The notes under the pieces are model-generated. The model was not told the DNA's origin. It saw only the letters and a list, made by a program, of their open reading frames with translations, and ran no database searches. The translations under genes were made by a program, and so were the position numbers. Below, in pieces: positions 1-22,849 of a DNA stretch of 64,000 nucleotides. Numbering within the stretch: the stretch's first letter is position 1; the number at the start of each line of letters is the position of its first letter. Origin of the DNA: Rhabdobacter roseus (lineage in GTDB: Bacteria > Bacteroidota > Bacteroidia > Cytophagales > Spirosomataceae). The stretch is from contig NZ_JACHGF010000004.1 in NCBI RefSeq assembly GCF_014202275.1, forward strand, positions 270,928-334,927. Reading direction: 5' to 3'.

Positions 1-736
1 GGGTTTTTGATCTAAAAATGGCTTCATTCTCCGGAGTCTTTAGGGCTGGGGGTGCGTCAAATCGCCCACCCGTAATGATATGGACGGGAATATTCGGAAG
101 CGGGCTTCCCTTGAGTTCTTTAAATTCCGATTCCCGTAATTCACCCAGTACTCTACCCTCCTCACGAATGGCTCTTGGCGCATCCTTGTTTCGGTTGGCC
201 AAGCCAGCGGCGAGCTCTGCAATTGTCCGGTCAATTTTCTCATCGTCCCATCCCAGCGCTGTGTAGTAGTCGCGTTGGTTTTGGTTGGTTTCGGTGAAAT
301 CAGCCGGATCAATGATGACGAGCCCGGCTAGTAGTTGGGGGTAGTACACAGCAAAGCCCCGGACGTAAAGCCCACCCAGGGAATGCCCCACGAGCACATA
401 GGGAGGCTTTATGTGGAGATGATTCAATAGCCTGACCAACCGATCCGAAACATGTTTGATGGTCGGTGCCTGATCATCGGGCTCGGAGGCACCAATGCCC
501 GGCCGGTCGTAGATAACCAAGGGAGCCAGGGCCGCAGCTCCTTGTACCATTCGGTCCCAGTGGCCCATGGGCGTTCCGTAGCCGCTTTCAAACACCAATA
601 CCGGCTGACCTTCCTGGCGCGCGTCCATGCCGACGACGTTCACCGCCATAGCCGTACTGTCGATCGTGACGAATCGGGTTTGCGAAAAAGCCTGGAGGCT
701 TACGAAGCTCGCCAGGGTAAGCACGGCTAATTTCAT
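1..736 (-). CDS. secreted alpha/beta hydrolase, C-terminus outside the window
   Basis: Reading the minus strand from the ATG at 736-734 gives an uninterrupted frame that leaves the window at base 1, so only the first 245 residues are visible. It starts with a signal peptide (MKLAVLTLASF...AFSQ). The nucleophile elbow GHSLGG lies at residues 117-122 (Ser119 predicted nucleophile), and a YDRPGIGAS segment sits at about 76-84, both typical of the alpha/beta hydrolase fold. A histidine expected near the end would be off the window. It is probably a periplasmic or secreted esterase-like enzyme; the substrate cannot be told. The gene is read in the same direction as the M56 genes that follow, 48 bases beyond the stop of the first one. 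Confidence 0.85.
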   Translation of the reverse strand, partial: MKLAVLTLASFVSLQAFSQTRFVTIDSTAMAVNVVGMDARQEGQPVLVFESGYGTPMGHWDRMVQGAAALAPLVIYDRPGIGASEPDDQAPTIKHVSDRLVRLLNHLHIKPPYVLVGHSLGGLYVRGFAVYYPQLLAGLVIIDPADFTETNQNQRDYYTALGWDDEKIDRTIAELAAGLANRNKDAPRAIREEGRVLGELRESEFKELKGSPLPNIPVHIITGGRFDAPPALKTPENEAIFRSKT

Positions 737-784
737 CTTTATCAACGATTAACGAGGAGAGCTTAGGAAGAAAAGAGAGGTACT

Positions 785-2821
785 TTACTTTTTGCCTTTC
801 TTCGTGCTAATAAGCACTACTCCATTTTTGCCTTTTTTACCATACATAGGGGAGTGGTCCCCTTTTTTAATCTCTATACTATGAATAGTATCCGGAGGTA
901 GATCCAAAAAGGTTTTCTGGTCCACCGGTACATTATCCAACAGATACAGGGGCTGATACTCTTTATCACCAATAAACTGGATGGATTCTAACGAATCGTC
1001 AGCAGGTACCTTGAGTATACCTAAGTTGGCCTTTTTAAAAGGAACAGAATACCGGTACTCCGACTCGTCGACGGGCTTGCCCTTGGCCGTAGCATCCATA
1101 TCGACGGCGTCTTCAAACCGGAATTTAGGCAGTACCAGGCCCGTCCGTTTTTCTTTATCTTCCTTCGGAGCTTCCAGCGGGGCTTTCAGCGGGACTTCGT
1201 CTTTTTCTAACATAAACTGAATCGGTAGCTGGTACAGCATCGCCACGGGACGGCCGTTTTGCCGGGCGGGTTTCCACCTGGGCATACTCAGCACCACGCG
1301 CAGGGCCTCTTCGTCGATCCCCGCGCCCAGCCCGTTCACGATTTTAGGCTCACGAATAGCTCCCTCCTCACTCACCAGGAAGCTCACCAGTACCCGCCCC
1401 TGCACCTCCTTACGGCTGGCTTCGGTGGGGTACATGATGTTCCGGGCCAGGTACTTGTAGAGCTCACTTGTCCCACCGGGAAACTCGGGCATTTGCTCCA
1501 CGATGGTGAAAGTACCTTCCGGGGTCGTTGCCCGCGCCGTGTCGGTAGAGGCCGGTTTTATAGAGCCATATCCTACTACTACGACCTCCTCCAGCGACTG
1601 TTTCTGGCGCAGAAGCCGGGCATTGATCGTTTGATTTTTCTCCGTGATGCGAATCTCTTGCGGCTGGTACCCCACAAAGCTAATGACGATTGTGCTGTTG
1701 AGCGGTACATCTTTCAGCTCAAAAGTACCCTGCTGGTTGGTGGTGGTACCCGCAGTGGTACCTTTGGCTATGATCGCGGCGCTCGGTAGCGGCTGGCCGT
1801 CTTGATTAGTGACAGTACCGGTTACGGTGGTTTTTTCTTCGGAAGCCGTGAGGAGGGCCAGGGGTTCTTCCAGGAAGGTTTCCAGGCGCTCACTCAGAGA
1901 GGTACTTGCGTCTGACAAAGTACCTTTGGGTACGTACTTGCCTTTTTCGATGGCGGTAATGAGCCGCTGGCGGGCGGCGGTGAGCATCAGCACCAGCCCG
2001 ATCAGCGGCACAACGGCCAGGTACCTACCCAGCGTCCAGGGCGAATTTCTGTTTTTATACAACATCTTGATCCGTTGTTTTAAGAGTGATGAAGTGAAAA
2101 AGTGATTGGTGAGCGTAGCCAGCGGCGCACCCAGCGCGTAGGAAACCAAAAACGCGGCGTAGCGATCCCGCTCGGGCGCTTCCTCGTCGGCCAGGTACTC
2201 GTGTACCTGTTGGAGGGAATTTTTGTAAAAAATAAGCACAGGGTTGAACCAGAAAAGTACCCGAAGTACCTCCACGAGCAGGATGTCGAAGCTATGGCGC
2301 TGCTGTACGTGCACCAGCTCGTGGCGCAGAATGGCGTCGAAGTGTTGCTCGTAGTCGCTGCGGCTCACAACTACCCACTTCCAGAACGAGAACGAACCTA
2401 CCTCGTCAGTATTCATCAGGACCAGGGTACATTCGTCGAGCTCGATGGTTTCGCCCTGGTGGAGGTAGTTAAAGAGATCGCGTAGGTAGTTGTAGAGCCG
2501 CCCGGCCATCAGGAGCACGCCCAGGCCGTACACCACCCACAGGAACTGGCTCCAATGGGTCGTTTGGGCAGCCGTGTACACCACGGCCTCCGGCGCTACC
2601 ACCACCACGGGTACTTTGGCTACGGCGTAGACGGCCGTGGGCATCACGGGTATGCGCTCGGGGTACTTGATCAGCGGCAGCACAAAGGCCAGCAGCAGCG
2701 CGCCGAGCAGGTAGGTGCGGTTCCAGCGGAAGAAGGTGTGCTGGCGCAGCAGGAACCAGTAGCAGGCGTAGAGCAGTACCCAGTACAGGCTCACTTTCCC
2801 GAGATAGATGAATGCTTCCAT
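785..2821 (-). CDS. BlaR1-like M56 metallopeptidase fused to CarboxypepD_reg-like, TonB-C and plug-like domains
   Basis: 678 residues. Membrane segments are seen near 5-25, 37-52, 92-107 and 266-284. The zinc peptidase motif HELVH is at 167-171, followed by HEYLADEEA at 207-215, as in M56 (BlaR1/MecR1) peptidases. After the last membrane segment come a beta-sandwich of the CarboxypepD_reg-like family (about 332-400), the SusC-receptor-like string LEEVVVVGYG (410-419), a TonB C-terminal domain (about 446-538, with EFPGG, YP and MPRWKP motifs) and a tail resembling the plug of TonB-dependent receptors (about 622-678). Family knowledge suggests a membrane sensor/protease that inactivates the BlaI-type repressor; the ligand is unknown. 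It is the last gene of the blaI-led array, 8 bases after its neighbour. Confidence 0.85.
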   Translation of the reverse strand: MEAFIYLGKVSLYWVLLYACYWFLLRQHTFFRWNRTYLLGALLLAFVLPLIKYPERIPVMPTAVYAVAKVPVVVVAPEAVVYTAAQTTHWSQFLWVVYGLGVLLMAGRLYNYLRDLFNYLHQGETIELDECTLVLMNTDEVGSFSFWKWVVVSRSDYEQHFDAILRHELVHVQQRHSFDILLVEVLRVLFWFNPVLIFYKNSLQQVHEYLADEEAPERDRYAAFLVSYALGAPLATLTNHFFTSSLLKQRIKMLYKNRNSPWTLGRYLAVVPLIGLVLMLTAARQRLITAIEKGKYVPKGTLSDASTSLSERLETFLEEPLALLTASEEKTTVTGTVTNQDGQPLPSAAIIAKGTTAGTTTNQQGTFELKDVPLNSTIVISFVGYQPQEIRITEKNQTINARLLRQKQSLEEVVVVGYGSIKPASTDTARATTPEGTFTIVEQMPEFPGGTSELYKYLARNIMYPTEASRKEVQGRVLVSFLVSEEGAIREPKIVNGLGAGIDEEALRVVLSMPRWKPARQNGRPVAMLYQLPIQFMLEKDEVPLKAPLEAPKEDKEKRTGLVLPKFRFEDAVDMDATAKGKPVDESEYRYSVPFKKANLGILKVPADDSLESIQFIGDKEYQPLYLLDNVPVDQKTFLDLPPDTIHSIEIKKGDHSPMYGKKGKNGVVLISTKKGKK

Positions 2822-2829
2822 GGTGAACC

Positions 2830-3594
2830 CTAGTTAGTCCGAAGTTCTCCTAGCTGGAAGGTAATCGGTAGGTTAAACCGCACGTTTTTTGCCTGGCCAT
2901 CCTGCGAGCCGGGCTTCCAGTGCGGCATGGTTGATACGAGACGGATTGCTTCTTCGTCCATACCGAAGCCGAGGCCTTTCTGGACCTGGATGTCCCGGAT
3001 CTGGCCATCGGCACCCACTACGAATCGTAAAAAGACTTTTCCTTCCACCTGCGCATCAATGGCCCTTTGGGGGTACTTTAAATGCTGCTTGACATAGGAA
3101 TACATGGCCTTTACGCCGCCCGGAAACTCGGGATGCTTTTCGATTACGGTGAAAATACTATCCCGACCGGCCACGGCTTTTAGGGCGGGATCTTGGGTAC
3201 TTCGCGCTTCGGCCTCCGTTTGCTTGTGGAGGGTAATCGAAATCGCCGCATTTTTTACTTCGTTTTCCAGCAAAGGGATCGTCATGGAGCGGTACCCCTC
3301 AAACCCGATGACCAGCTTTCCCCGGCTAGGCGCTCTAAGCTTAAATTTCCCTTCGGCATTCGTCAGGGTTTCGATGTCCTGCCCTTCTACCCGAATGAGC
3401 GCAGCTGGGAAGGGGTCTCCGTCCGGGAAGAGTACCATACCTTCTACCTCCGTGAGTTGCCCGAGGTCGGGCTGATCGTTGGTCTTGAGCTCGCGCTCGC
3501 AGCTCGTCATGAAGAGCAGCCCTGACGCGATGAAGAGTACAGCAGCGAGGTACTTACCCAGTGTCTTGTATGAATGTCGAGTGGTATGCGGCAT
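2830..3594 (-). CDS. CarboxypepD_reg-like/TonB-C lipoprotein-like protein, M56 domain missing
   Basis: 254 residues. It matches only the second half of its neighbours: the stretch TLGKYLAAVL...SCERE (11-35) aligns with SLGKYGAVALL...GCERE of the two M56 genes upstream in the operon. A CarboxypepD_reg-like domain (about 48-122) and a TonB C-terminal domain (about 155-247, EFPGG and MPHWKPG motifs) follow. No HELVH motif and no other membrane segments are present. The single hydrophobic segment ends at MTSC (Cys32), so the protein may be a lipoprotein or keep one anchor. It looks like a paralogue that lost its peptidase half, or one that works beside a complete partner. It has a proper ATG and an open frame, so it is not obviously broken. 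Confidence 0.8.
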   Translation of the reverse strand: MPHTTRHSYKTLGKYLAAVLFIASGLLFMTSCERELKTNDQPDLGQLTEVEGMVLFPDGDPFPAALIRVEGQDIETLTNAEGKFKLRAPSRGKLVIGFEGYRSMTIPLLENEVKNAAISITLHKQTEAEARSTQDPALKAVAGRDSIFTVIEKHPEFPGGVKAMYSYVKQHLKYPQRAIDAQVEGKVFLRFVVGADGQIRDIQVQKGLGFGMDEEAIRLVSTMPHWKPGSQDGQAKNVRFNLPITFQLGELRTN

Positions 3595-3658
3595 GGTGAT
3601 TCGCGTTTAAGGGTGGTAAATAAGGTGTTACAAAGCATGGGATCTGACAGCGGGTGGC

Positions 3659-5215
3659 CTACTCCTCGCTGGTCTTCGTATGCTCCGCCAGCTCAAAGGT
3701 GATCGGTAGGTTAAACTTCACGTTGACCGGCCTTCCGCTCTGGGCGCCGGGTACCCAGCGGGGCATCGCTTTGATCAACCGGATCGACTCTTCGTCCATA
3801 CCAAAGCCGAGTCCTTTCAGGATCTGGATGTCTTTGATATCACCCTCGGTGGTTACGATGAAGGTCAGGAATACCTTCCCTTCTACAAAGGCGCGCTGAG
3901 CGGGCACCGGGTACTTGAGTTCACGCCTGATGAAGTCGTACATGGCTCGCGCCCCGCCGGGAAATTCCGGCTGTTTCTCCACGACGGTGAAGATACGTTC
4001 GGGGGTATCTAAGGCCGGCTCAGGCAGGGTAAGCGGCGCTTCGGACTGGCTCACGACCACCGGTGGCTTGAAGGTTCTGGGAGTACCTTCCTCTTCTTCG
4101 GGAAGCATGAAGCGAGCGGACATTCTTTTTTGACCCACTACTTTCACGGAGGTACCTTGATACCCCACAAATTCCACGTCAAGCTCACTTCCTTTGGGGG
4201 CGCTGAGCTTGAATTTTCCTTCTCCATTGGTAGTGGTACCTTTGGTCGTGCCTTTTATTATTATACTAACGCCCGGCAAAGCAACATTTTCGTTATCCAC
4301 CACGAGTCCTTCCACCAGGATGTCTTCTTGGGAATCTGAGGCTACCACTTCCGGGAGGTCGGTGGTAGGTACTTCGCGCTCGCAACCGGCTACCAGTACC
4401 GCCACCAGACCAATGAGCAGCGCCACCGCCCCGTACTTACCCAGCGACCAGCGGGAGTTGCGCTGCCGGTAGAGCATCTTGATGCGCTCCTTGAGCAGCG
4501 AAGCGTTGAAGAAATGGTTGGTCAAAGCCGCCACGGGGGTACCTAGCGCGTACGACACCAGAAACTCGGCGTAGCGATCGCGCTCGGGCGCTTCTTCGTC
4601 GGCCAGGTACTCGTGTACTTGCTGGAGGGAATTTTTGTAAAAAATAAGAATGGGGTTGAACCAGAAAAGGACCCGAAGTACCTCCACGAGCAGGATATCA
4701 AAGCTATGGCGCTGCTGTACGTGCACCAGCTCGTGGCGCAGGATGGCGTCGAAGTGCTGCTCGTAGTCGGTACGGCTGACGACCACCCACTTTAGAAAGG
4801 AGAAAGAACCCACGCGGTCGGAATCCATCAGCACCAGGGTACATTCATCCAGCTCAATGGTTTCTCCCTGGCGAATGAAACTAAAAAGTTCTAGCAGGTA
4901 GTGGTAGAGCCGGTAGGCCATGACCAAGGCTCCGCTCAGGTAGAGGAGCGCCAGGAGCTTGAGCCAGGGAAAGGGTGCGGTAGGTACCTGGGCGGAAATC
5001 ACCAAGGGCGCAGCCGTGACCTCGTAGACCACCGGCAGCGGCGGAGCCGAGGCGGGGTACACTACCAGCGGCAGCACGAAGGCCAGCAGCAGCGCGCCCA
5101 GCAGGTAGGCGCGGTTCCAACGGAAGAAGGTGTGGTGGCGCAGCAAGAGCCAGTAGCAGGCGTAGAGCAGTACCCAGTACAGGCTCACTTTGCCGAGGTA
5201 GACGAGCGCTTCCAT
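3659..5215 (-). CDS. BlaR1-like M56 metallopeptidase fused to CarboxypepD_reg-like and TonB-C domains
   Basis: 518 residues. The order matches the other copies: membrane segments near 5-25, 37-53, 84-101 and 262-277, HELVH at 161-165, HEYLADEEA at 201-209, then a CarboxypepD_reg-like domain (about 298-370) and a TonB C-terminal domain (about 415-510). Unlike the genes at 785-2821 and 5220-7010 it has no plug-like tail. Bases 4728-4831 are identical over 104 bases to 6523-6626 of the next copy, showing recent duplication or gene conversion of the sensor half. It starts 4 bases after the stop of the 5220-7010 gene, so the two are co-transcribed. Confidence 0.85.
   Translation of the reverse strand: MEALVYLGKVSLYWVLLYACYWLLLRHHTFFRWNRAYLLGALLLAFVLPLVVYPASAPPLPVVYEVTAAPLVISAQVPTAPFPWLKLLALLYLSGALVMAYRLYHYLLELFSFIRQGETIELDECTLVLMDSDRVGSFSFLKWVVVSRTDYEQHFDAILRHELVHVQQRHSFDILLVEVLRVLFWFNPILIFYKNSLQQVHEYLADEEAPERDRYAEFLVSYALGTPVAALTNHFFNASLLKERIKMLYRQRNSRWSLGKYGAVALLIGLVAVLVAGCEREVPTTDLPEVVASDSQEDILVEGLVVDNENVALPGVSIIIKGTTKGTTTNGEGKFKLSAPKGSELDVEFVGYQGTSVKVVGQKRMSARFMLPEEEEGTPRTFKPPVVVSQSEAPLTLPEPALDTPERIFTVVEKQPEFPGGARAMYDFIRRELKYPVPAQRAFVEGKVFLTFIVTTEGDIKDIQILKGLGFGMDEESIRLIKAMPRWVPGAQSGRPVNVKFNLPITFELAEHTKTSEE
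4728..4831. repeat. 104-base exact repeat within an M56 gene (copy 1 of 2)
   Basis: Identical base for base to 6523-6626, at a constant offset of 1795. The flanking few hundred bases, and the first codons of both genes, are also nearly identical. It lies in the part encoding the segment just before and including HELVH. The third copy (about 2325-2430) is clearly related but diverged. Confidence 0.9.
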
Positions 5216-5219
5216 GTCT

Positions 5220-7010
5220 CTAATTTTTCTTGGTGGTGATCAGGATGACTCCGTTTTTCCCCTGCTCGCCGTAGATGTCGGTGGCGGATTTGTTTTTCAG
5301 TACATTGATGCTCTTGATGTCGTTGGGCTGTACTTTGTCCTGAAGGTTCACATTCTTCTCCTGCTTCACGCCGTCGATGATGAAGAGCGGTTGATTGGGA
5401 CTATTCGAATTCCAGATGTCTAATTTCGCCTCCTGGTTGGCCGGTTGGTTAATGGGCGAGTCAGGATTCAACGAAAAGCCAATGGGTAGGTTGAACCGCA
5501 CGTTGACGGGCTGTCCGCCTTCCGAGCCGGGCTTCCAGCGCGGCATGGTAGATACGACGCGCACGGCCTCCTCGTCGAGGCCGAAGCCCCGTCCCTTCAG
5601 GATTTTAATATCCTTGATTTCGCCCTGATCCGTCACCACGAAGTTCACGAACACCTTACCCTCTACCGAAGCCCGCGCGGCGGCATCGGGGTACTTGATG
5701 TTATTGCTCAGGTACTTGTACATTTCGGTGGTTCCTCCGGGAAATTCCGGCTGTTTTTCCACCACCCCAAAGATGGGCTTGCCGTCGGCCGTGGCAGCGG
5801 GCTGAACGATCACCCGCACCGTATCGGCGTTCAGCGAGGAAATGGTGTGGGTACTTGGCTTCACGTCTACCGAGCCCGCCTTGCCGTCGGAGAGCGTGAC
5901 TTCGTAGCGCATGGCTTTTTTGGCCAGTACCTGGAGCGACACAGGTTTGTGGCCCACAAAGGAAATTTCTAATTCGCCACCCGCGGGAGCGTTGAACTGG
6001 AACCGGCCCGCCGCGTCGGTGGTAGTACCGCTCTGGCCATCTTTTAGGACAATGGACGCGCCGGGTAGGGGCGCTCCGTTGGGGCCGGTTACGATACCTT
6101 CAATCGGTACCGCTTGCCCGGCGGGTACTTCCTGGGTGGGGCGCTGGTTTTGGGTACTGATAAGGCCTTCGCGCTCGCAGCCCGCGGCCACTATCGCTAC
6201 CAGACCAATCAGCAGCGCCACCGCGCCGTACTTGCCCAGCGACCAGCGCGAGTTGCGGGCTTTGTAGAGCATCTTGATGCGCTCCTTGAGCAGCGAGGCG
6301 TTGAAGAAGTGGTTGGTCAACACCGCCACGGGGGTACCTAGCGCGTACGACACCAGAAACTCGGCGTAGCGATCGCGCTCGGGGGCTTCTTCGTCGGCCA
6401 GGTACTCGTGTACCTGCTGGAGGGAGTTTTTATAAAAGATAAGTACGGGGTTGAACCAGAAAAGAACCCGAAGTACCTCCACGAGCAGGATGTCGAAGCT
6501 GTGGCGCTGCTGCACGTGCACGAGCTCGTGGCGCAGGATGGCGTCGAAGTGCTGCTCGTAGTCGGTACGGCTGACGACCACCCACTTTAGAAAGGAGAAA
6601 GAACCCACGCGGTCGGAATCCATCAGGACCAGGGTACATTCGTCCAGCTCGATGGTTTCTCCCTGGCGAATGAACACGACGAGCTGACGCAGGTACCCGG
6701 CTAGTTTTACCAGCATCACGCCCACGCCCGCCGCGTAGAGCAGCGCCAGGAGCTTGAGCCACGGAAAGGGTGCGGTAGGTACCTGGGCCGATACGACTAC
6801 CGTGGTGGCCGTGACTTCGTAGACTACCGGCAGGGGCGGGGCCGAGGCGGGGTACACCACCAGCGGCAGCACAAAGGCCAGCAACAGCGCGCCCAGCAGG
6901 TAGGCGCGGTTCCAGCGGAAGAAGGTGTGCTGGCGCAGCAGCAGCCAGTAACAAGCGTAGAGCAGTACCCAGTACAGGCTCACCTTGCCAATATAGGTAA
7001 GTAGTTCCAT
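5220..7010 (-). CDS. BlaR1-like M56 metallopeptidase fused to CarboxypepD_reg-like, TonB-C and plug-like domains
   Basis: 596 residues. HELVH at 161-165 and HEYLADEEA at 201-209 mark the M56 peptidase; four membrane segments surround it, the last at about 262-277. A CarboxypepD_reg-like domain (about 302-373), TonB C-terminal domain (about 421-515) and a receptor-plug-like tail (about 538-596, with FIIDGV, SINVLK, YGEQGKNG and ILITTKK) follow. It is the first gene after the BlaI-type repressor (64-base gap), the place BlaR1 holds in bla operons. By family knowledge it would cleave or help inactivate the repressor after sensing an envelope signal. Whether that signal is a beta-lactam is not shown; there is no penicillin-binding domain in it. 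Confidence 0.87.
   Translation of the reverse strand: MELLTYIGKVSLYWVLLYACYWLLLRQHTFFRWNRAYLLGALLLAFVLPLVVYPASAPPLPVVYEVTATTVVVSAQVPTAPFPWLKLLALLYAAGVGVMLVKLAGYLRQLVVFIRQGETIELDECTLVLMDSDRVGSFSFLKWVVVSRTDYEQHFDAILRHELVHVQQRHSFDILLVEVLRVLFWFNPVLIFYKNSLQQVHEYLADEEAPERDRYAEFLVSYALGTPVAVLTNHFFNASLLKERIKMLYKARNSRWSLGKYGAVALLIGLVAIVAAGCEREGLISTQNQRPTQEVPAGQAVPIEGIVTGPNGAPLPGASIVLKDGQSGTTTDAAGRFQFNAPAGGELEISFVGHKPVSLQVLAKKAMRYEVTLSDGKAGSVDVKPSTHTISSLNADTVRVIVQPAATADGKPIFGVVEKQPEFPGGTTEMYKYLSNNIKYPDAAARASVEGKVFVNFVVTDQGEIKDIKILKGRGFGLDEEAVRVVSTMPRWKPGSEGGQPVNVRFNLPIGFSLNPDSPINQPANQEAKLDIWNSNSPNQPLFIIDGVKQEKNVNLQDKVQPNDIKSINVLKNKSATDIYGEQGKNGVILITTKKN
6523..6626. repeat. 104-base exact repeat within an M56 gene (copy 2 of 2)
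   Basis: Partner of 4728-4831. Synonymous positions are conserved too, so this is recent duplication or gene conversion rather than protein-level constraint. Confidence 0.9.
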
Positions 7011-7074
7011 GATTTTCAGGTAGGTTTAGGTAAAAAAAATGGTATGAATACAGGTCGGAACGCGTAGCGGCTTG

Positions 7075-7449
7075 CTACTCGCTGTCTTTCTGGTTTTGCA
7101 TCATCTTGATGATCTCATCCAGGTCCTTGGTGTTCAGATCGTGGTCTTTTACAAAGAAGGAAACGAGCTTGGGCAGCGAGCTGTCAAAGTAGTTGCTGAG
7201 CAGCTGATTCATTTCGAAGCGTTTGTATTCCACCTCGGTGATCAGGGGGTAGTATTCGTGGGTTTTGCCGTAAGCCGTGTAGCCCACCACGCCCTTCTTT
7301 TCCAGAATCCGGATGATGGTCGAAACGGTATTGTAGGCGGGCTTGGGCTCGGGCATCTCGGCCAGTACGTCCTTGACAAAGCCTTTTCCCAATTGCCAGA
7401 GAATACGCATGATTTCTTCTTCGGCCCGAGTTAGGGATCTCATTTCCAT
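7075..7449 (-). CDS. BlaI/MecI/CopY-family transcriptional repressor
   Basis: 124 residues, the usual size. The N-terminal winged helix (LTRAEEEIMRILWQLG, about 6-21, and YNTVSTIIRILEKKG, about 39-53) is typical of BlaI/MecI, and the C-terminal part is a helical dimerisation region. It heads the array of M56 genes and is expected to repress its own promoter until an M56 partner inactivates it. Two ACTA-N6-TAGT dyads in the promoter (7500-7513 and 7520-7533) are good operator candidates. Start chosen at the ATG at 7449; a second ATG at 7443 would shorten it by two residues. Confidence 0.92.
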   Translation of the reverse strand: MEMRSLTRAEEEIMRILWQLGKGFVKDVLAEMPEPKPAYNTVSTIIRILEKKGVVGYTAYGKTHEYYPLITEVEYKRFEMNQLLSNYFDSSLPKLVSFFVKDHDLNTKDLDEIIKMMQNQKDSE

Positions 7450-7489: not shown

Positions 7490-7520
7490 CAAAGATAATA
7501 CTATTTAATTAGTTTCAAAA
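7490..7520 (-). promoter_or_regulatory. predicted promoter of the BlaI/M56 operon
   Basis: On the minus strand, TTTTG (7520-7516), an 18-base spacer and TATCTTTG (7497-7490) fit the Bacteroidota promoter (-33 TTG/TTTG, -7 TAnnTTTG). It lies about 40 bases before the repressor gene start. Confidence 0.75.
7500..7513. promoter_or_regulatory. candidate BlaI operator 1
   Basis: Dyad ACTATTTAATTAGT (ACTA-N6-TAGT) lying inside the spacer of the predicted promoter. ACTA/TAGT half-sites resemble those known for BlaI/MecI regulators. Its centre is exactly 20 bases from that of the second dyad. Confidence 0.7.
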
Positions 7521-7533
7521 CTATTTTGTTAGT
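7520..7533. promoter_or_regulatory. candidate BlaI operator 2
   Basis: Dyad ACTATTTTGTTAGT (ACTA-N6-TAGT), touching the -33 element. Two sites two helical turns apart would suit cooperative binding of two repressor dimers. Confidence 0.68.
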
Positions 7534-21586: not shown

Positions 21587-22849
21587 TTAGGGGGTGGCAG
21601 CAGGAAGTGAAGTCTTTTGCCATTGCTTGATCTGAATCTTAAGCTTGGCGAAAATGCGCGCATATCCCATGAGCAATATCATCATAAACCAGGGGAAAAA
21701 CAGAAATTGCCCGCCCGTAAGGTTGCTTTCAAAGTAGGGGATGATCATGAAAGGGGGGAGGAAAAGATACTGTTCCGAGAAAAAACGCATGAAGTTCCAG
21801 CCGGGGCGGATCACGATGAGGTAAAAGAAGAACGAGAACATCAGTAGCCCGGTGCCAAAAAGTACCTCAAAATAGGAATTATGGTAGCCCCCCCAGGAGG
21901 TAATTGACTTTATTTTTCGCTTATTAAAAATCCCGATTCCGGTAACCCACAAGGAGGGTTGGCTCTTGAAGTGAGTAATCATGGATCGGGCGACACCGGC
22001 TCGGGCTTCCCCTTTTTTGGCTTGTACTTCGGTCTTTTTTACCCGGGCATTTAGCGCTGATTTAGGATCTTTAAGCAGAAAAATAATAAGCCCCAGCGGA
22101 AGCAGGGCTAGTAAAAACTTGTAATAAATGGGAAACCGCTGATAGCGAAAGGTGAAAAGGAGCGCCACAAAGGACAAGCTTAACCAGGAGGTCCGGTTGC
22201 CAGAAATGAGGACCAGGTACATGGCTACGCCGCAAAAGGCGATGATCAACCAGCGTCGCCAAAAAGGGAGCGACTGCGAGCGTAAAAGATCGATTCCGGT
22301 AACCAAAAAGATGGTTCCCGACCAGCCGTAGTGGTTAGACACAAAGGCATTCCCTTCGTTTTCGGAGGAGATGAAATAGATGTTGGTGTTGCTAAGGCTA
22401 CCTCCGGTAAGAAAAAAGCTGACGAGCGGAATCATATACACCCAGTTGATACTACTCAGAAAGGCCCCCAGAATTTCTTTGATAGGGTAGCTAAGGAGTA
22501 AGCTCCCGACCGTAAGCGCTACGTATAAAAAGGGAACAATAAACGTGAGCGCCCGAACCATAGAAATAAGGGGCTCCGGCGTGAATACGGAGAAAAGAAA
22601 AAGAACGAGGGATAAAATGAATACCGACTGGGCATAGTGTACAACCAAGCGGAGTAAATGGATATTTAGCCTAATCAGGTAGATCAACGAAAACGCAAGG
22701 ACGCCGTACTTGATAAGCCGCATGGGCCCTACGCTGGCCATCCCCGACAATACCGCCAACGCGTAGCCCACAATTACGAGAGCCATATTCAGAACCAGTA
22801 GTCTGAACAGGGTATTCTGGTAGATGCTATGGTTGGTACGTTCTTTCAA
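21587..22849 (-). CDS. O-antigen polymerase/ligase-like membrane protein (Wzy-type)
   Basis: 420 residues with about ten to twelve hydrophobic segments. The region ISGNRTSWLSL (about 206-216) and the large loop ending in GGYHNSYFEVLFGTG fit the Wzy_C/O-antigen ligase family, in which the His-Asn pair is conserved. It would join lipid-linked repeat units or ligate glycan. The start is a TTG at 22849 overlapping the previous stop by 4 bases (TTGA); no ATG is better placed. It is the last gene of the locus. Confidence 0.8.
   Translation of the reverse strand: MKERTNHSIYQNTLFRLLVLNMALVIVGYALAVLSGMASVGPMRLIKYGVLAFSLIYLIRLNIHLLRLVVHYAQSVFILSLVLFLFSVFTPEPLISMVRALTFIVPFLYVALTVGSLLLSYPIKEILGAFLSSINWVYMIPLVSFFLTGGSLSNTNIYFISSENEGNAFVSNHYGWSGTIFLVTGIDLLRSQSLPFWRRWLIIAFCGVAMYLVLISGNRTSWLSLSFVALLFTFRYQRFPIYYKFLLALLPLGLIIFLLKDPKSALNARVKKTEVQAKKGEARAGVARSMITHFKSQPSLWVTGIGIFNKRKIKSITSWGGYHNSYFEVLFGTGLLMFSFFFYLIVIRPGWNFMRFFSEQYLFLPPFMIIPYFESNLTGGQFLFFPWFMMILLMGYARIFAKLKIQIKQWQKTSLPAATP

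Follow-up and report, generated by a model that had tools for sequence, protein, structure and literature searches.

A BlaI-linked array of M56 protease/TonB fusion genes in Rhabdobacter roseus as a candidate reporter of TonB-dependent transport

The BlaR1–BlaI and MecR1–MecI systems of Staphylococcus pair a repressor with an M56 zinc protease, and their operator is of the TACA-TGTA type. Here we describe an array of five minus-strand genes, blaI followed by g1, g2, g3 and g4, at positions 785–7449 of a 64,000-nt stretch of the Rhabdobacter roseus genome (hereafter the window; the whole genome comprises 6.9 Mb in 27 contigs). The array resembles the staphylococcal systems in its repressor and protease, with matches to MecI and BlaI on one side and to the BlaR1 fold on the other, and differs in its doubled ACTA-N6-TAGT operator, in the several receptors that accompany one repressor, and in their tails, where Ton-system parts were found by Pfam and NCBIfam and a penicillin-binding sensor was not. 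The M56/TonB fusions of Bacteroidota have the same domain order beside BlaI in many genera; to these the window array adds three receptors with a tail-only gene, apparently homogenised proteases and two hinge classes. With SusC/RagA transporters it shares the N-terminal extension (NTE, PF13715), a TonB-box-like motif in g4 and the C-terminal part of the plug, but its proteins are devoid of a barrel and are joined to a TonB C-terminal domain (CTD) and an inner-membrane protease. The likeness to TonB/ExbB–ExbD lies in that CTD, in exbB and exbD near the array and in an operator at tonB in seven relatives, whereas a TonB-type N-terminal helix was not seen, although no motif search for it was made. 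In cell-surface signalling through STN transporters and anti-sigma factors, as described in PMC7782687, a transporter-linked periplasmic signal is likewise relayed via an inner-membrane protein; the array differs in having a protease/BlaI output rather than an anti-sigma factor, and NTE rather than STN. A reading made from the letters alone (the sequence-only reading) had set the arrangement against ordinary bla operons; the fusion itself turned out not to be unusual, as it stands beside BlaI in Pedobacter, Mucilaginibacter and Flavobacteriaceae.

We interpret the array as a BlaI/M56 antirepressor operon that regulates itself and whose receptors monitor TonB-dependent transport, and assign this interpretation a probability of roughly 0.55. 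BlaI would bind a double palindrome lying over the promoter and so repress the whole operon. In each M56 receptor, a cytoplasmic zinc protease would be joined through the transmembrane helix TM4 to a periplasmic tail, a topology taken from BlaR1. The tail appears to unite the kinds of parts that meet in Ton-dependent uptake: a SusC NTE, a TonB CTD and, in two of the three receptors, half a plug. Altered contacts of the tail with TonB boxes, TonB or transporters would switch on the protease and lead to BlaI cleavage, by the precedent of BlaR1/BlaI, and derepression would then raise the array and, in some relatives whose operators lie there, also tonB or exbD. With proteases that are nearly interchangeable and tails that differ, the three receptors could feed several inputs into one repressor, while g3, exported and probably anchored by a lipid, would compete for the same partners or act as an adaptor to them. 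We infer that the signal concerns Ton-dependent transport because of the tail make-up and the operators at tonB and exbD. The array is probably a switch with multiple inputs, through which gene expression follows the state of outer-membrane transport, and its constant proteases and variable tails would make a simple design for such a switch. To our knowledge, how Bacteroidota match TonB supply to demand is an open question, of interest since these bacteria carry many TonB-dependent transporters; an operator found on Ton-tailed proteases and, in relatives, on tonB/exbD would offer a direct candidate.

The gene content agrees with the sequence-only reading, which had claimed one repressor gene, three complete BlaR1-like proteins and one with the outer domains only. 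The repressor gene blaI (7075–7449, minus strand) encodes a 124-aa protein of the BlaI/MecI family (Pfam PF03965 Penicillinase_R, E 5e-32) that phmmer matches to MecI (1okr, E 4e-8, residues 6–117) and BlaI (1sd4, E 8e-6). It is followed on the same strand by g1 (5220–7010, 596 aa), g2 (3659–5215, 518 aa), g3 (2830–3594, 254 aa) and g4 (785–2821, 678 aa), with gaps of 64, 4, 64 and 8 bp. According to Pfam, and for g1 also NCBIfam, an AlphaFold (AF2) model and Foldseek, g1 and g4 carry M56, CarbopepD_reg_2, TonB_C and Plug in this order and g2 the first three, while g3 has CarbopepD_reg_2 and TonB_C only and is a peptidase-less tail starting at the equivalent of TM4. The two plug-like tails, the tail ending at the TonB domain and the gene without a peptidase that had been described earlier are therefore g1/g4, g2 and g3. 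M56 (PF05569) scores above its cut-off in g1, g2 and g4, of ten matches in the genome; translations of the open reading frames (ORFs) show HELVH in the same three and not in g3, and TonB_C (PF03544) is present in all four. Only two terminator-like minus-strand matches occur from blaI to the end of g4, both weak and within g4, and the pyruvate kinase gene upstream of the array is followed by a hairpin with a T-run. Given the short gaps and this terminator pattern, co-transcription of the array is likely. A pseudogene status for g3 was considered and is not favoured: the gene lies 64 bp from g2, its frame is open, and related receptors elsewhere likewise have tail-only copies nearby.

Upstream of blaI, a motif scan located two ACTA-N6-TAGT palindromes, at 7520–7533 and 7500–7513, whose starts are 20 bp apart. 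A consensus match on the minus strand at 7490–7519, TTTG-N18-TATCTTTG, overlaps both palindromes and is taken here to be a Bacteroidota-type promoter; its strict form was found in 22 of the 88 upstream regions with at least two palindromes. These 88 come from a set of 100 distinct blaI upstream regions, of which eight had one palindrome and four had none; three of the four site-less regions belong to other blaI genes of the R. roseus genome. Paired palindromes 16–32 bp apart were present in 86/100 regions, as against 0/2000 mononucleotide shuffles, and 68 spacings between consecutive palindromes were exactly 20 bp. This anatomy suggests that BlaI represses its own operon through the double palindrome. 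The R. roseus genome contains two double sites, each of them at a blaI/M56 array (this one and L010 on contig C5), and no instance of the reversed pattern. The second array (L010 5268–9434) consists of another blaI and two tandem M56 genes in which no TonB_C tails were recognised, and the two BlaI proteins may share operator sites.

The association extends well beyond this genome. A stricter double site was found in 35 of the 59 genomes searched, R. roseus included, and the reversed pattern in one; in a class-wide draw, this stricter form was found in 51/295 genomes and the reversed pattern in three. Thirty class-wide sites, including four already known ones (that of the window among them), were examined as loci: blaI follows the site directly in 27 and after an intervening gene in one, and two sites are elsewhere. 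All 28 blaI-linked sites have M56 alongside, which indicates that the ACTA-N6-TAGT double operator belongs to BlaI–M56 systems. With such an operator as a marker, other genomes can readily be searched for candidate regulons. A regulon built from single palindromes was tried and abandoned, the single site being rarer than its reversed control in the R. roseus genome; among 13 single-palindrome loci inspected, five had the full AACTA-N6-TAGTT away from blaI and no consistent gene.

The tails were examined by domain search and structure prediction. The earlier view that the beta-lactam sensor is replaced by carboxypeptidase-like and TonB-type domains holds with regard to the Ton-system parts and the penicillin-binding domain, which was not found; the "carboxypeptidase-like" domain is not an enzyme, since Pfam, NCBIfam, structure profile search and Foldseek all match it (PF13715) to the non-catalytic NTE of SusC. 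A profile search against solved structures matched the tails to the NTE and plug of SusC/RagA and to the TonB CTD, and in g1 and g4 the Pfam plug match covers the C-terminal part of the plug only. According to PMC7782687, the NTE has an Ig-like fold and sits before the TonB box in SusC transporters, and its removal from one SusC made growth on levan undetectable. The AF2 model of g1 (from 48 sequences; mean pLDDT 83.9, pTM 0.53) matched SusC NTE with a Foldseek E of 7e-7 and the Pseudomonas aeruginosa TonB CTD (6i97_D) with an E of 1.5e-4. Its matches to S. aureus BlaR1 (8exq, 8exp) had E-values of about 1e-5 (best 8e-6) with TM-scores of about 0.3, and the transmembrane/protease part of BlaR1 (8exr_A) was matched with a TM-score of 0.51 by target and an rmsd of 6.6. 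For g4 the model reached a mean pLDDT of 77.4 and a pTM of 0.49. Neither Pfam, NCBIfam nor the models revealed the 22-strand SusC barrel in the array proteins, which contain the NTE and half-plug only. Directly after the NTE and ahead of TonB_C, g4 carries a TonB-box-like LEEVVVVGYG (1565–1594, minus strand; motif scan). A TonB box in every tail was considered and rejected, as such a motif was seen in 9/149 fusions. With NTE, half-plug, TonB-box-like motif and TonB CTD in the tails, a single chain therefore combines pieces of both contact partners of TonB-dependent transport.

In its M56 and BlaI halves the array corresponds to the bla system, and it could in principle sense the cell wall or beta-lactams as BlaR1 does, with the Ton-like domains as structural spacers. 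We consider this very unlikely: Pfam and NCBIfam found no penicillin-binding/transpeptidase or beta-lactamase domain in the tails at E ≤ 0.001, no gene for a protein of these kinds was recognised beside the array among neighbours mostly judged by eye, and in relatives second operators stand at tonB/exbD.

This link to the Ton machinery emerged from the search of 59 genomes, in which all 16 strict sites outside the already collected arrays were inspected (15 new regions and L074). Seven of them lie directly upstream of tonB, in the exbD–tonB interval of exbB-exbD-exbD-tonB operons (L074, L193–L198; tonB confirmed by Pfam in all seven, exbD in L193), and one lies upstream of exbD (L203; Pfam). 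The remaining sites are at other blaI/M56 loci (six), at a blaI where no M56 was recognised (L204) and at a place with no blaI nearby (L205). The gene order blaI-exbD-M56/TonB is found in L071, L072, L073, L080 and L082 (exbD by Pfam), with tonB next in all of these but L080, where the contig ends. In L009 (the window's own locus), L047, L048, L051 and L052, exbB lies within 2.4 kb of the array, accompanied by exbD except in L051. In part of the family, then, a BlaI probably reaches tonB, as judged from operator position. In Porphyromonas gingivalis, a BlaI-family gene whose locus tag adjoins that of an M56 gene was under-expressed in excess hemin (log fold change −1.74; PMC10470040). This response would be in keeping with induction under scarcity of a Ton substrate, and we offer it as a lead only.

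The same observations could be accommodated if the tails were working TonB-like energy couplers or decoys, M56 mainly a membrane anchor, and BlaI regulated by a minority of copies. The TonB CTD does retain its conserved YP and W (Y440, P441 and W492, which do not vary across an alignment of 48 fusions), exbB/exbD are adjacent, and tail-only copies recur. The protease residues H161, E162, H165 and E202 are invariant in the same alignment, though, which would be needless for an anchor, and the genes are linked to blaI and to its operator. Moreover, the N terminus of the fusions is an M56 membrane domain (Pfam, g1 model) and not, from its sequence, a TonB-type helix coupling to ExbB–ExbD, for which no motif search was made. 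On balance this alternative seems to us quite improbable.

We further surveyed the distribution of the fusions in related loci, keeping the best 80 of at least 500 relatives. BlaI stands beside M56/TonB fusions in Dyadobacter, Spirosoma, Runella, Pedobacter, Mucilaginibacter and Flavobacteriaceae. A search for like arrays in other genomes, proposed along with the sequence-only reading, found runs of at least two M56 receptors in 14/36 loci of relatives and in 36/78 named loci; these sets (L046–L082 and L083–L160) overlap in part, e.g., L046/L090 and L057/L117, were picked by similarity to the window, and are counted as loci. The number of full receptor copies per locus ranges from one to five (five in L046), and arrays with tail-only genes are also present in relatives; counts of peptidase-less genes per locus were not used, since they include canonical TonB genes. 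The sequence-only reading is supported here by the several receptors per repressor, an arrangement recurring in related genera, and by the single promoter with a BlaI-type double operator. The BlaI–M56–TonB fusion is common in Bacteroidota and arrays recur in the family of R. roseus; therefore, the kind is already known. The literature searched, which left most subscription journals outside its coverage, yielded no account of M56/TonB arrays, the ACTA-N6-TAGT operator or an internal M56 lipobox. The 2007 survey of the TonB family by Chu et al. is said to mention BlaR1-linked TonB proteins.

What is less expected is that the protease halves of the window array appear homogenised while the tails seem older and common to several genera, as if one protease served several sensors. 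The cores are 98% identical between g1 and g2, 89% between g1 and g4 and 88% between g2 and g4, compared with 63%, 55% and 47% for the TonB_C domains. Along the g1 and g2 proteins, identity is 93–100% over residues 115–264 (third codon positions 80–90% alike), dips to 57% at residues 85–114, and falls to 27% directly after the TM4 cysteine, with third codon positions also at 27%; g1 and g4 form an identity mosaic. A tree built from 34 proteins of 12 of the 40 arrays unites the cores of g1, g2 and g4 with support of 94/87, below the star threshold. A single clade for their TonB_C domains was rejected (AU p 0.00017): the g4 domain joins the tails of last genes from other genera (93/89 with L046 and L083), and across several genera the TonB_C domains of last genes cluster (80/87 for six rows). 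The pattern is consistent with protease halves undergoing gene conversion, or with an exchange of tails.

Across the 40 arrays, nine loci having been excluded as overlapping (overlap being assumed for L112 and L146), cores were more alike than TonB_C domains in 58/71 within-array pairs (means of 64.7% vs 51.7%). General concerted evolution of the cores was nevertheless rejected, as a core pair at least 90% identical occurs in 5/40 arrays only (L009, L046, L053, L056 and L139) and most Spirosoma-type arrays show the reverse. The range of one to five full copies among loci and the g1/g4 mosaic are what neutral duplication with gene conversion, in which the copies would have no division of labour, could produce. 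Such an origin appears unlikely to us, given that the last-gene TonB_C domains of several genera cluster together and have a Cys-less hinge and that all 20 Dyadobacter arrays examined keep a cysteine hinge in their first gene. As a separate observation, the two-receptor arrays L120, L122–L125, L127, L128 and L132 have TonB_C domains more alike than their cores, opposite to the window.

The hinge in question is TM4, the helix linking protease to tail. By a lipobox rule that we assume to apply, g1 ends TM4 with VAAGC-E (Cys278; 6177–6179, minus strand) and g2 with LVAGC-E (Cys278; 4382–4384, minus strand), both lipobox-like, while the MTSC-E of g3 (Cys32; 3499–3501, minus strand) is a predicted lipidation site; g4 has LTAARQR at 1964–1984 and no Cys at this point. 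After three of 162 distinct fusions without a hinge anchor were dropped, a lipobox matched in the TM4 window of 43/159, and in 39 of these the cysteine stood at the same offset, exactly 36 residues past the K-x-R-I-x-x-M anchor. Cysteine makes up 2.7% of residues in the TM4 window, as against 0.7% across the M56 half and 0.2% across the tail. The box is present in the first receptor of 29/45 arrays and in the last receptor of 3/45 (Fisher p 8e-9, uncorrected for kinship, only identical arrays having been merged). In Dyadobacter it is found in 20/20 first receptors and 0/22 later ones; this count covers the 20 of 25 loci that hold this type of array, the others (L106–L109, L114) being further M56 loci, none of them listed with a box. 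At least ten changes of state were counted on a FastTree core tree. Where the box is lacking, arginine is the commonest residue at the Cys position (46/117). A lipobox defined by pattern alone was not accepted, because loose matches are found outside TM4 too: residues 1–35 of the fusions contain 80, the tails 61 and the remaining M56 half 17. The assessment relied instead on position, array order and recurrence.

Both g3 and its counterpart L046 7820–8647 start just before TM4 and retain the cysteine, and TM4 thereby becomes an N-terminal, lipoprotein-like signal. The g3 product carries what may be a lipoprotein signal peptide ahead of its SusC NTE and TonB_C, to judge from its motifs. Of 43 distinct tail-only TonB_C proteins, some of them from outside arrays, 12 have a loose lipobox, six have an M56 remnant and no lipobox, and 25 have neither, although several of these look secreted by eye.

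A tentative extension of these findings is that first receptors are self-splitting sensors. TM4 would serve as an internal lipoprotein signal on which Lgt and LspA act, freeing the Ton-type tail of g1 and g2 as a g3-like lipoprotein; the protease would stay behind, controlled by or reporting lipoprotein maturation, and the array would end in an uncleavable, intact receptor of the g4 type. Ton traffic and lipoprotein maturation would in that case both be read out by the BlaI circuit. The fixed position of the cysteine, its preference for first receptors, its repeated gain or loss and the start points of the tail-only genes argue for this proposal. On the other side stand the loose matches elsewhere in the same proteins, the failure of 11/42 boxes under a stricter lipobox form, the g1 model, in which the TM4 helix runs ten residues beyond the Cys (at low confidence), and the interruption that cleavage would cause in a BlaR1-like relay. 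We regard such splitting as doubtful, if still worth entertaining; if the TM4 lipobox is used, a lipoprotein would arise, unusually, from an internal part of a membrane protein. Both the array logic and the hinge cysteine deserve experimental study.

Several results weigh against the array as a reporter of Ton-dependent transport under BlaI control. Three blaI genes of the R. roseus genome (L013, L014, L015) are without a double site, and single palindromes are not enriched there (18 and 16 vs 50 and 40 reversed). The genome's own exbB-exbD-exbD-tonB operon (L208 2434–5412, contig C11) is without an operator, so that the tonB link is seen in relatives only. Homogenisation of the cores is not general either: of 93 proteins in the 40 arrays, 18 have their nearest core, and eight their nearest TonB_C domain, within their own array, and in 8/9 Spirosoma-type arrays (L120–L133) cores are less alike than TonB_C domains. 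Finally, lipobox cleavage in g1 and g2, if it occurs, would separate sensor from protease.

A few observations stand apart from these questions. Cysteine occurs at offset 32 from the hinge anchor in 11/117 non-lipobox proteins, and in the second receptors L058 3510–4919 and L059 3397–4791 a TM4 Cys sits some residues closer to the N terminus (MCTQ), outside the lipobox rule. Two of the class-wide double operators have no blaI recognised nearby: of L215 and L238, one site lies before an ABC-permease-like gene (by eye) and one between divergent small genes. Near position 1501 of L186 (contig C12 of R. roseus), CRISPR-type repeats (by eye) surround one chance single palindrome.

Downstream of g4, a sixth co-directional gene encodes an alpha/beta hydrolase (Pfam; window 1–745, L009 8756–9673), 39–48 bp past g4 depending on the start codon chosen, and runs off the window. 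The operon may end with this gene, for which phmmer detected no counterpart among the related loci L046–L082. Beyond the hydrolase, exbB and exbD (Pfam; L009 7470–8660) lie on the opposite strand, convergent with the array. Elsewhere in the window, positions 21587–50565 form a long stretch of mostly minus-strand ORFs.

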